Below the pieces are notes generated by a model, which worked only from the letters and a program-made list of their open reading frames with translations, searched no databases and had not been told where the DNA came from. Shown here piece by piece: positions 57,020 through 64,000 of a DNA stretch of 64,000 bases (position 1 is the first letter of the stretch; every line of letters starts with the position of its first letter). The DNA comes from Bacteroidota bacterium (GTDB lineage: Bacteria; Bacteroidota; Bacteroidia; B-17B0; Aurantibacillaceae): the NCBI GenBank assembly GCA_025363015.1, contig JANYEQ010000006.1, forward strand, positions 1 through 64,000, read 5' to 3'. Both the position numbers and the translations under genes were made by a program.

Positions 57020-58246
57020 TTAGCGCATACAATTAGATTCTATTAACCTAACTTCTAACTGTAATTGGGTTAGGTTTCTTAAAATACACACTAAAGGCAT
57101 GTGGTAATAGTTTGATTTTTCCCATGTTTCTGGCAATCCAGAGTCTGTATTTGTAATATCTGATAAATTGATAAGTATTGCGCTATTTTGCTTAAAATTT
57201 TCTAAAATAAATGTATTAAAATTATTTAAGTTTGTTTTTAAAGCTTGTAATTGGGGTTTAGCCGTAGCGTTTTCGCCAAATAAAATATTAGTTGGAATAT
57301 CATAATTATCAGGCATTGTAAGTTCGCTATACGTAATAACCGTAGCTATATTTTGTTCGGTTAACTGTAATACGTTTAATTTAATTACCTCTATAGCATT
57401 ACACAACTCGTTACATTTTTTGTTTAGTTCGATATTATTTTTTTTGTTTGTTAAAGTATCTATAATAGTTTTATTAAAAATTAAACTATTTTGTTGTGTA
57501 GCATAGTTATAACACTCTTCTAAATGTTGGTTTATTTTTTCGGAAGCTTTTACAATTGTGAAACCTGGGCGAAAATTTATTAAGGTTAAAAACAAGCCAC
57601 AACCCATTACTAATAAAATTGTAATCATAATGGTATTAGTTTTATTTTCGGGATTACGAATGCCCGTAAAATAATACAGTGGTGTAAAAACCAACAACAT
57701 AATAGCAACAGATATAAGCCCCATAATGTTTGCGCCAGGCCAGTGAAATATTTTAAACAACACTGCAAAACTTATTAAAACGCCAAATACCGCACCAAAT
57801 ACAATTATTAATTTGTCGTTTTTATTCTGTTTTTCTTTAGTTTTTAAAACAGACATTAATGGTAAAAAAATTAAACCCAAGGATGCTACACCCATTAGTA
57901 TCATTGGTGATGCTCCTGGCCAATGCATAAATTTAAAAATTAGACCAGCCGTCATTGTTATTGCGGAAAATAATCCGCTAATTATCATCGTTTTTTTCAT
58001 TTTATAATAATTTTTAAAAGTTAATAATAGGAGTGTTTCTTCTTCTATTTCCCATAAAGCATCTTTGTAAAATGTTTTTATGGTTTTTTGGTAGAAGCTC
58101 TCAAAGTCTCCATCTACTTCAAGATTTTGTTCAACAATACAACAAATATGATCGAGGAGGTTTTGCTGCAGCGCCTCCATTTCAACGCCACGTGTACTAA
58201 TGTCGTTGATAATATAATCTATTTGTTTATCGCTAAGACAATACAT
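57020..58246 (-). CDS. PadR-associated membrane protein with two GldL-like HWPGA hairpins
   Basis: The protein has 408 residues. Residues 1-90 form a cytosolic helical domain (LSDKQIDYIINDISTRGVEMEALQQNLLDHICC) like the helical prefixes of membrane proteins controlled by PadR repressors. There are about five transmembrane helices between 90 and 225, with the motif twice, FKFMHWPGAS (about 106) and FKIFHWPGAN (about 162), as seen once in gliding-motor protein GldL. The periplasmic tail, ending WEKSNYYHMPLVCILRNLTQLQLEV, resembles the N-terminal part of GldM's outer domain. I infer a GldL/M-related envelope protein. Its start is immediately after the padR stop. Confidence 0.75.
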   Translation of the reverse strand: MYCLSDKQIDYIINDISTRGVEMEALQQNLLDHICCIVEQNLEVDGDFESFYQKTIKTFYKDALWEIEEETLLLLTFKNYYKMKKTMIISGLFSAITMTAGLIFKFMHWPGASPMILMGVASLGLIFLPLMSVLKTKEKQNKNDKLIIVFGAVFGVLISFAVLFKIFHWPGANIMGLISVAIMLLVFTPLYYFTGIRNPENKTNTIMITILLVMGCGLFLTLINFRPGFTIVKASEKINQHLEECYNYATQQNSLIFNKTIIDTLTNKKNNIELNKKCNELCNAIEVIKLNVLQLTEQNIATVITYSELTMPDNYDIPTNILFGENATAKPQLQALKTNLNNFNTFILENFKQNSAILINLSDITNTDSGLPETWEKSNYYHMPLVCILRNLTQLQLEVRLIESNCMR

Positions 58247-58588
58247 TTATACAGTTTTTGTTTTTATATTTAATAAAAATTTCATTGTATTCATAAAGTC
58301 GGCCAACTCGCTTACCTTTTCTTTTGTTTTAATTTTTCCTTGTGGGCTTAAGCGATAATATTTACGAACTCTCTTCCCAATAAATTCTATTTCGGTAGTT
58401 ACTAAGCCATCCGCCTCTAAAGAATGTAAAGTTGGATAAAGTGCGCCTTCAGTAATTAAAATTTTATCTAAGGTTTGTTCTTTAACCGTTTGCGTAATTT
58501 CGTAACCATACATTTTTTTGTTATCGGCTAATAGCTTTAACACGATGGTTTTAAGAGTTCCTTTTATTAATTCTGATGAGTAATTCAT
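58247..58588 (-). CDS. PadR-family transcriptional regulator
   Basis: This 113-residue winged-helix repressor has the family text ELIKGTLKTIVLKLLADNKKMYGYEITQTVKEQT, GALYPTLHSLEADGLVTTE, and RKYYRLSPQGKIKTKEK, then one short C-terminal helix for dimerisation (short PadR-s2 type). It abuts the membrane-protein gene it probably controls. Its own promoter contains a perfect palindrome, so autorepression is likely. Confidence 0.92.
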   Translation of the reverse strand: MNYSSELIKGTLKTIVLKLLADNKKMYGYEITQTVKEQTLDKILITEGALYPTLHSLEADGLVTTEIEFIGKRVRKYYRLSPQGKIKTKEKVSELADFMNTMKFLLNIKTKTV

Positions 58589-58634
58589 TTTATCTTTTTG
58601 CTTTTAAGTTAATTTTTATACTTTTATGGCTAAT

Positions 58635-58674
58635 TACATAAGACAAATATACATAAGTTTCTTATGTATACAAA
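58635..58674 (-). promoter_or_regulatory. padR promoter and operator: palindrome in the spacer, three TACATAAG boxes
   Basis: On the minus strand TTTG (complement of 58671-58674) and TATATTTG (complement of 58644-58651), 19 bases apart, form a consensus promoter for padR. A perfect inverted repeat with 10-base arms, TATACATAAG (58648-58657) and CTTATGTATA (58661-58670), spaced by TTT, covers the spacer and the -7 element. A third copy of the half-site, TACATAAG, lies at 58635-58642 just downstream. The same region must serve the divergent GAF gene. Confidence 0.82.
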
Positions 58675-58694: not shown

Positions 58695-59960
58695 ATGCTT
58701 AATAAGATTGGTAAATTTTTAATTGTGTTTGGTTTAGTAGGCTTAAGTTATAATATTGTAATAACTACATCGTTTGAAAGTGTTTTTGAGAGCATACCTA
58801 AGCCTTTATTTATTACTATGCTTTTAATTCCAATCATTAGTTTTTGCCTAAGTTTTAGTTTTATTTATTATAATTCATTGCCACAAAAAAGAAAAAAAGT
58901 AATTCGTGTTATTTCAATTGTTAGTTGTATTATTTTGTTTTTTGGTCTTTTTAGTAAAGGCATGCACTGGGCAGGGGCTTCTGCAGAAGCTATTATTAGT
59001 ATTTTTTTGTTTTCGTTTGGGTGTTTACCATTAATAATAAAATCACGTTACGAAAAAAGAAAATCTATTATTTCTAAAACTGCTTTAAGGTTGAGTATAG
59101 TAGACTTATTAGCCATTTTATTTTTGTGCTTAGGTGCCTTATTTAAATTTATGCATTGGCCAGGTTGGTTATTTTTAACTATACCAGGTTGTATTTTATT
59201 AGTAATATCTATTTTTGGGTGGAATGTTTCCTTTAGAAAAGAAGTGAATCTTAGGCAAGAAGCTGAAGAAAAATTAAAAGAAAGTTTAAAAAATTTAGAA
59301 ATTTTAAACACAATAAGTAACGAAATTACTTCAACGCTAAACCTTAATAGTGTAATGAATTTAATTTACCAAAATATTAGTAAGTTAATGGATGCACCCT
59401 TTTTTATTATTGGTTCGTACCATAGTGATGAAGAAAACGTATCTGTAAGGTATTGTGTAAAAGAAGGGCAAATTGCTCCTGTAGAATTTAATAGAATACC
59501 CGTAAATCATTCAAATAGCTACATGGCTTTAGCTATTAAAAATAAAAAAGAAATTATTATTAATGATGAAGAAAAAGAACGTGATCAATATTTATCTGGT
59601 AGGCCACAGCTGCATGGCAAGGAAGATATTTACACTAATTCATTAATATTTATTCCTTTAATAATTCAAGAAGATGTAATTGGTTTATTTTCTGTTCAAA
59701 GTACAATAAAACAAGTTTATTCTAACTCTAATATTGCTTTATTACGATCGTTAGCCCCTGTAATTGCTGTAGCTTTAAACAACGCAAACGCATATAATAA
59801 AATTAATGCAGCAAATGCTTTAGTTGAAGAGCAGAAAAAAGCAGTTGAAGAAAAACAAAAAGAAATTTTAGATAGTATTAGATATGCTAAACGCATACAA
59901 CAAGCCTTATTGCCAACCGAAAAATTTATAGAAAGAAATGTTAATAAACTAAAAAAGTAA
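58695..59960 (+). CDS. Membrane GAF sensor with HWPGA hairpins, ending before a SpoIIE domain
   Basis: This 421-residue protein has six hydrophobic helices (1-175) including two HWPG-type hairpins, KGMHWAGAS (about 89) and FKFMHWPGW (about 153). A coiled coil (185-210) and a GAF domain (about 210-370, LNTISNEITSTLNLNSVMNLIYQNISKLM ... LIFIPLIIQEDVIGLFSVQS) follow, then a second coil ending DSIRYAKRIQQALLPTEKF (about 391-409). In longer Bacteroidota relatives that last motif leads into a SpoIIE phosphatase; here the chain stops 13 residues later. The frame also opens at 58626, but that would run through the padR operator, so the ATG at 58695 is used. Confidence 0.78.
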   Translation: MLNKIGKFLIVFGLVGLSYNIVITTSFESVFESIPKPLFITMLLIPIISFCLSFSFIYYNSLPQKRKKVIRVISIVSCIILFFGLFSKGMHWAGASAEAIISIFLFSFGCLPLIIKSRYEKRKSIISKTALRLSIVDLLAILFLCLGALFKFMHWPGWLFLTIPGCILLVISIFGWNVSFRKEVNLRQEAEEKLKESLKNLEILNTISNEITSTLNLNSVMNLIYQNISKLMDAPFFIIGSYHSDEENVSVRYCVKEGQIAPVEFNRIPVNHSNSYMALAIKNKKEIIINDEEKERDQYLSGRPQLHGKEDIYTNSLIFIPLIIQEDVIGLFSVQSTIKQVYSNSNIALLRSLAPVIAVALNNANAYNKINAANALVEEQKKAVEEKQKEILDSIRYAKRIQQALLPTEKFIERNVNKLKK

Positions 59961-62868: not shown

Positions 62869-63161
62869 CCCTTTATTTTATTAAAGCCTTGAAGATACAA
62901 AATAAAATTTACTACCATAATTTACAAAGCCATCATACGCCACTGTATTTATATCTTTATATACAGTTTGTGAATACACTTGGTTATAATTTTGTGTTTA
63001 CTTTTTTGAATTATGATGATTTCATATCTTAATCTTAATTAAAAATATAACAATATACCTAAAACGCAAAGTTTAAAGGCTATAATATATATTTAAAACA
63101 AAAAAATGCCTGTCTTAACTAAAAAGACAGGCATTTAATAAAGTTTGTATTTTATTTATAC
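62869..63161. other. Intergenic region between helicase and ABC operon
   Basis: These 293 bases hold the helicase terminator (63104-63136) and the promoter region of the binding-protein gene. No consensus TANNTTTG promoter is seen for it. A pair ACTGTAT (62942-62948) and ATACAGT (62961-62967), 12 bases apart, is a possible but weak operator. No riboswitch or RNA gene is apparent. Confidence 0.5.
63104..63136 (-). terminator. Rho-independent terminator of the helicase gene
   Basis: Perfect 13-base arms AAATGCCTGTCTT (63104-63116) and AAGACAGGCATTT (63124-63136) enclose a 7-base loop. On the minus strand a T-run follows. It lies 25 bases past the stop. Confidence 0.92.
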
Positions 63162-64000
63162 TTAAAACTTACTTTTTCCGAATGATTTTTTCTTTTCGCC
63201 ACCCGCACTTTTATCTTTGTCTCTACTTCCTCCAAACGATTTTTCTCTGCTAAAGCCACTTTTTTCTGATGATGAACCACCGTCACCAGTACGAGGGCGT
63301 TTAAAGCCACCTTCGCGTTTTTCGCCACCCTTGTAGCCGCCACCTCCGCTACCATAACTCTTACGTTCGCCACCTTTGTAACCGCCTCCACTACCACCGT
63401 AGCTCTTACGTTCTCCACCACCACTGTAACTTTTACGTTCGCCGCCTCCATCTTTCATTTTACGATTACTAACTTCTAAACTAATTTTACGACCATTAAA
63501 TTCAACATCTTGCGAATTTATGCCCATAAAATTATCTACAAACTTGCTTTCAGTTTCAAAAAACGAAAAGCTACTTTTTACATCTACGTTAAATACCATA
63601 CGAGGATGTAACTTAGCCGTATCGCTCATAAAATCTTTTAAACTATTGATATTAAAGCCATCCATTTGACCCATATTTACAAAAAAGCGAGTGGTTCGTC
63701 CGTTTCCAAAAGCACCATCAACACTGCCTTTAACGATGTTTAAATCAGGTGCGTTTTGATAGTATTCGTGAAAGCGGTTAAACTCTTCGCTAATAAAGCG
63801 TTTTATTAATTCTTCTTTACTTAAGTCTTTTAACTCTTCGTAAATAGCTGGTAAAAACGATTCTATTTCAACATCTTTTACCTCCACATTATGTAATTTA
63901 TGTACTAGATTAAACAGTTGTTTTTCGCACACATCTAAACCATTGGGTACATCTTTTTTAACAAATTGTTTTTTAAGAATGCGCTCAATATCTTTTATTT
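63162..64000 (-). CDS. DEAD-box RNA helicase, C-terminal part only
   Basis: The frame runs off the right edge. Reading inward from the edge, the chain begins IKDIERILKKQFVKKDVPNGLDVCEKQL, the post-core linker of Bacteroidota DEAD-box helicases. An in-frame GTG at 63932 could be mistaken for a start, but homology upstream rules it out. Next is a DbpA-like RNA-binding domain (GRTTRFFVNMGQMDGFNINSLKDFM ... GRKISLEVSNRKMKD) and a tail of GGERKSYGG-type repeats, rich in Gly, Lys, Arg and Ser. The tail probably binds RNA loosely. The helicase core lies outside the window. Confidence 0.93.
   Translation of the reverse strand, partial: IKDIERILKKQFVKKDVPNGLDVCEKQLFNLVHKLHNVEVKDVEIESFLPAIYEELKDLSKEELIKRFISEEFNRFHEYYQNAPDLNIVKGSVDGAFGNGRTTRFFVNMGQMDGFNINSLKDFMSDTAKLHPRMVFNVDVKSSFSFFETESKFVDNFMGINSQDVEFNGRKISLEVSNRKMKDGGGERKSYSGGGERKSYGGSGGGYKGGERKSYGSGGGGYKGGEKREGGFKRPRTGDGGSSSEKSGFSREKSFGGSRDKDKSAGGEKKKSFGKSKF

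Follow-up and report, generated by a model that had tools for sequence, protein, structure and literature searches.

We asked whether a perfect palindrome in front of a putative padR gene is the operator through which the encoded PadR protein controls its own transcription, and how far such a reading can be carried from the letters of the DNA and of its relatives. The window, that is, the whole stretch of 64,000 nucleotides that was analysed, contains the following genes and predicted promoter features at this locus:

58247-58588, minus strand: padR, 113 aa, PadR family (PF03551) by profile match, putative autorepressor
57020-58246, minus strand: second gene of the presumed padR operon, 408 aa, with LLDHICC, HWPG/GldL_N and GldM_1st parts
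58695-59960, plus strand: divergent gene, HWPG membrane part and GAF, start placed from relatives
58671-58674, minus strand: -33 element TTTG, by the Bacteroidota promoter consensus, not conserved in orthologues
58644-58651, minus strand: -7 element TATATTTG, by the consensus and the distance to the start reported in PMC6847099
58639, minus strand: predicted padR transcription start, with the G of the -7 set as -5 according to PMC6847099
58648-58670, no strand assigned: predicted core operator, a perfect 10+10 dyad, from the sequence and its retention upstream of orthologues

The padR product belongs to the PadR family with a PF03551 score of 65.8 bits (cut-off 27), and at 113 aa it gives sequence matches to solved small PadR proteins; members of the PadR-s2 subfamily have about 110 aa and a short C-terminal domain of a single helix. 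It contains EGALYPTLHSLE, a version of the PadR-s2 alpha-3 motif EGT(L/I)YPxLxRLE given in PMC3506622 in which two fixed places differ. The partner gene follows padR directly, with zero gap. Its N-terminal domain is conserved, with the consensus DxQIDxIL...LLDHICC in 62 proteins, and is modelled as three short helices plus a long helix (mean pLDDT 71, a modest confidence). The membrane helices that follow match GldL_N in 44 of the 62 proteins, and a C-terminal part matches GldM_1st in 15. HAAS/DUF1700 is absent among the Pfam families listed (25 of 38) for the 62 N-termini, and in the whole proteins, and a fold search with the N-terminal model returned no match with E up to 0.001. An assignment of this domain to HAAS was set aside, as it has neither a match in the Pfam families listed nor a fold match, an absence that does not amount to exclusion.

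The letters of the window bear out the 10+10 palindrome with a three-base spacer described in the earlier note: the arms TATACATAAG (58648-58657) and CTTATGTATA (58661-58670) enclose the loop TTT. The third half-site is equally real: TACATAAG at 58635-58642 lies in direct orientation 15 bp from the copy at 58650 and, as set out below, is conserved in orthologues as a rung of a 15-bp array. On the minus strand, TTTG (58674-58671), 19 bp and TATATTTG (58651-58644) together agree in 10 of 10 letters with TTTG/TAnnTTTG, the consensus reported for Bacteroidota, in which the G of the -7 is position -5 (PMC6847099). The arrangement is thus that of a Bacteroidota sigma-A promoter, a TAnnTTTG -7 with a TTTG -33. 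The previous placement of the palindrome between these elements held in the window, where the dyad occupies the spacer and overlaps the -7, but the -33 itself lacks conservation: a TTTG-like -33 (at least three of four letters, spacer 18-20) is present in only 23 of 104 orthologue promoters, the 104 being those of 137 orthologue upstreams in which the dyad adjoins a -7. An inverted repeat overlapping the regulator's own promoter, one feature expected of a PadR autoregulatory operator, is present. Reading the dyad as an RNA hairpin was set aside, since it lies upstream of the predicted start.

Taken alone, the palindrome is weak evidence and suggestive only. The octamer TACATAAG is itself not rare, since it occurs 5 times in the window compared to 3.48 expected, and perfect arm-10 dyads (loop up to 10) begin at 13 positions in the window compared to 0-15 in 20 shuffles. 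When the 106-bp intergenic stretch was shuffled 2000 times, 29 of the shuffles contained an equally good dyad. In the 3.3-Mb genome all 16 letters of the dyad are matched at a single place; if up to 3 mismatches are allowed, there are 36 sites per strand, compared to 30 with the reversed control. A site with 2 mismatches (L002), the only one of its kind, was considered as a second regulon member and set aside, as it lies inside an ORF. It is conservation, not rarity, that makes the dyad more than a chance event.

This conservation emerged when the upstream regions of orthologous padR genes were compared, as the earlier note had proposed. A PadR search of 199 relatives gave matches in 159, distant paralogues included; 84 were close matches with E below 1e-20, of which 83 were taken (G029 was left out). 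A further 80 loci came from named genomes of Flavobacterium, Chitinophagaceae, Fluviicola, Taibaiella and other Bacteroidetes. Partly because these overlap with the first set of relatives, duplicate upstreams were removed, which reduced the 163 loci to 137. The dyad TACATAAG-N3-CTTATGTA, with at most 3 mismatches in 16 letters, is found in 113 of these 137 distinct upstreams, and orthologues with as little as about 50% identity at the protein level still have it. At the same threshold it is found in about 0.3% of dinucleotide shuffles and in none of 16 distant PadR paralogues, the best of which has 4 mismatches (21 control loci, 5 of them without a usable match). Forty held-out loci fetched afterwards, a hand-picked subset of the matches of a further search and mostly from genomes new to the analysis, gave the dyad at the same threshold in 32 cases, compared to 0.4% of shuffles. 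No dyad within 3 mismatches was seen in the remaining 24 of the 137 and 8 of the 40 upstreams.

The pattern is also close to exclusive to padR. A search of 120 genomes for exact ATACATN9ATGTATNTTTG returned 21 matches, 20 of which are at a padR start; 19 of the 21 adjoin padR matches from the PadR search of relatives. At a contig end (G056:C92) the match is followed by ATGTATTCATCTGAA, which resembles the beginning of a PadR protein, and the one match elsewhere lies near the end of contig G021:C132. The reversed pattern, used as a control in the same search, gave 4 matches.

A third line of evidence comes from the protein. Among 177 orthologues from the two sets (137 and 40), 168 have Glu and 9 have Phe at residue 47, where the motif of the recognition helix starts, and a stricter helix pattern left one orthologue untyped; motifs of the EGT(L/I)YPxLxRLE type are placed in the recognition helix in PMC3506622. 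In all nine Phe47 cases, four of which come from the held-out set, both arms have T instead of C as their third letter (TATAT, not TACAT). With Glu47, none of 148 dyads had T in both arms when the consensus was used for scanning, and 2 of 152 did when the scan was neutral at that letter. Two genomes carry more than one PadR paralogue of this kind, three in G406 (L203, L223 and L237) and two in G321 (L206 and L231). In both, Phe and Glu paralogues are found in one genome, each beside its own type of operator. Since the Phe47 proteins form one clade (support 97/89), the change to Phe47 and TATAT is to be read as one event kept over wide divergence, not as nine, and the co-change is not independently replicated. 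Glu47 may contact the cytosine of the operator. Because the operator letter changes with residue 47 and nearly all exact sites are at padR, PadR very probably binds the dyad. The earlier proposal of an autoregulatory operator is strongly supported by orthologue conservation, the near-exclusive location and the co-change with the recognition helix.

The third half-site points to a larger array, whose hexamers in the window are:

58664-58669, minus strand: hexamer B, ATACAT in padR sense, predicted -30 to -25
58649-58654, minus strand: hexamer C, ATGTAT in padR sense, predicted -15 to -10, overlapping the -7
58634-58639, minus strand: hexamer D, ATGTAA in padR sense, predicted +1 to +6, 15 bp from C and part of the third half-site

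Exact ATACAT/ATGTAT hexamers in 69 non-redundant upstreams form 59 pairs spaced by 15 bp and 23 spaced by 30 bp, compared to 0.02 per spacing in shuffles. Offsets of extra half-sites were scanned in 46 of 54 representatives, the others having no good -7 or no ATG. In the leader group (28 upstreams) the best offset in direct orientation was +26, where 16 of the 28 matched 6 or more of the 8 letters, and the best offset in inverted orientation was -15 (10 of 28); the two are mirror images about the dyad. Combined with the 15-bp spacing, these offsets yield a full form of four hexamers, A> B> <C <D, with a single pitch of 15 bp and starts at about -45, -30, -15 and +1. B, C and D are present in the window, whose own padR upstream shows no recognisable copy of A (-45 to -40 in some relatives). 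As 15 bp is about 1.4 turns, neighbouring dimers would lie almost on opposite sides of the double helix.

The last hexamer coincides with the beginning of the message. In 17 of 24 ATGTAT-15-ATGTAT pairs the second hexamer is an in-frame start codon, and in 27 of the 104 promoters the ATG at the predicted +1 is the padR start codon, giving an apparently leaderless mRNA. In flavobacteria, leaderless mRNAs are reported to be a minority, amounting to 5.5% in F. psychrophilum (PMC9723704). Among the other 77 promoters, 37 are within one letter of ATGTAT at the predicted +1. D is coding sequence in the leaderless group and is therefore not conserved there for regulatory reasons alone; the leader group is the cleaner evidence for D. 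The predicted padR transcript of the window begins with AUGUAA, a start codon followed directly by a stop. Five of the 77 leader-type promoters have such a beginning, which, besides the window, is seen upstream of padR at L014, L017, L026 and L027. In a scan of 46 of the 69 upstreams, an element TTGA-N3-TCAA was found anywhere in the scanned stretch in 11 of 46, compared to 9% of shuffles; at six loci (L172, L046, L048, L148, L034 and L053) it lies 44-46 bp before the dyad. None was seen in the window's padR upstream stretch.

The same 40 bases had been thought to drive the divergent GAF gene as well, a claim for which the sequence gave no direct support: no good plus-strand promoter was found within them. 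A plus-strand candidate before the operator, TTTG at 58597 with TACTTTTA at 58619, was set aside, as its 9 of 10 letters are no better than those of an intra-coding candidate. The operator does lie upstream of the divergent gene, since relatives place the start of this gene at about 58695. The gene stands beside padR, in divergent orientation, in 10 other distinct loci, and in the three of these that were scanned it has a SpoIIE phosphatase domain (3 of 3). The window's copy keeps the HWPG part and the linker, has the GAF domain and ends before the SpoIIE domain of its relatives; no SpoIIE domain was found after GAF in the window. The HWPG part of the divergent relative at L193 aligns over 109 residues with the partner gene of the window, at 29% identity and with E 1.5e-10. 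With two related membrane proteins encoded side by side, a control region common to both genes is plausible. Elsewhere in the window, at 63152-63932 on the minus strand, an ORF of 256 aa has a Gly/Ser/Lys-rich repetitive C-terminus, and a second long frame (99 aa) is open across the repeat.

We consider it highly likely that PadR uses the palindrome as an operator to repress its own operon, comprising padR and the membrane-protein gene. In the mechanism that we infer from these sequences, one PadR dimer would occupy ATACAT-N9-ATGTAT (predicted -30 to -10); because it would cover the spacer and part of the -7, it is proposed to block the sigma-A polymerase. Further dimers may be recruited to the outer hexamers 15 bp away, namely D (+1 to +6) and, in some relatives, A (-45 to -40), and a signal from the membrane protein may release PadR. 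A broader picture can be offered only tentatively: the operator might be a one-dimensional lattice with dimers every 15 bp and with the first six mRNA nucleotides as its last rung, the same letters then being half-site, transcription start and, in leaderless mRNAs, start and second codons, within a class-wide Bacteroidia circuit of GldL-like membrane proteins that uses a Glu/Phe code at position 47.

Several other explanations have to be weighed against autorepression. Another DNA-binding protein might use the site, with padR merely its target, and an octamer that is itself not rare would suit this; it is nevertheless unlikely, since 20 of the 21 exact sites, found blind, are at padR and not at other genes, and since the third operator letter shifts with residue 47 of PadR's own recognition helix. 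We regard it as just as improbable that PadR binds but mainly activates, or is a signal-dependent dual regulator. A PadR-like positive regulator, PrhP, has been reported (PMC6804342), but a site over the -7 and the predicted start is in a position to block the polymerase, and LltR, LstR and LftR are reported to repress their own genes (PMC6624303).

Conservation might also reflect the core promoter and the initially transcribed sequence, with no operator at all, given that the -7 overlaps arm C and that D includes the start codon in those 27 promoters. This is very improbable: conservation of the upstream arm (-30 to -25) is similar to that of C (both having been chosen by match), whereas the -33 is not conserved, the reversed pattern is rare and the dyad is absent from paralogue promoters. 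Finally, a chance palindrome in AT-rich DNA, for which the frequency of equally good dyads in intergenic shuffles might speak, has a negligible probability, being refuted by conservation in orthologues and by pattern sites that are found almost only at padR.

Autorepression through this dyad would be, by kind, the work of a PadR autoregulatory operator like that of cdPadR1 from Clostridioides difficile, which is reported to bind TACT-N11-AGTA in its own promoter (PMC5050560). Both are small PadR proteins, the present one probably of the PadR-s2 subfamily like cdPadR1, with inverted repeats in their own promoters, the counterpart here, predicted from sequence, being TACA-N11-TGTA. cdPadR1 has two sets of repeats and forms several gel-shift complexes, and its motif is described in 200 other genome regions (PMC5050560), in contrast to the one perfect site and 15-bp ladder seen here. 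LmrR of Lactococcus lactis is likewise a PadR-s2 autoregulator with a site over promoter elements and ATGT/ACAT half-sites, but it senses drugs and its half-sites are reported in the order ATGT/ACAT with a spacer of 8-10 nt (PMC3506622, PMC5050560), compared to the order ACAT-N9-ATGT here. The order of padR and a membrane protein with an N-terminal helical domain recalls the HAAS-PadR dyad and Listeria LltR (PMC11237479, PMC6624303); LltR and LstR are reported to repress their own genes, and the LltR operon encodes a membrane protein (PMC6624303). Unlike in the HAAS-PadR dyad, no Pfam HAAS/DUF1700 is among the families listed for the partner, whose membrane part is GldL/GldM-like, and, unlike in HAAS-PadR and LltR as described in these sources, a divergent gene with SpoIIE is often present. 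Among the matches listed in the open-licence literature, we found no paper on this operator, nor did the literature searched describe the ladder, the overlap with the start codon or the co-change of helix and operator.

To our knowledge, few regulator-operator pairs of Bacteroidia have been defined. The present pair can be read from sequence and comes with a built-in test of specificity, E47 with TACAT versus F47 with TATAT, sometimes in one genome. It leads to a membrane-protein operon that appears to be unstudied and has parts resembling the motor of gliding and type IX secretion. If the ladder reading is true, it would provide a clear case of bases shared between the half-site of a repressor and the start codon of an mRNA.
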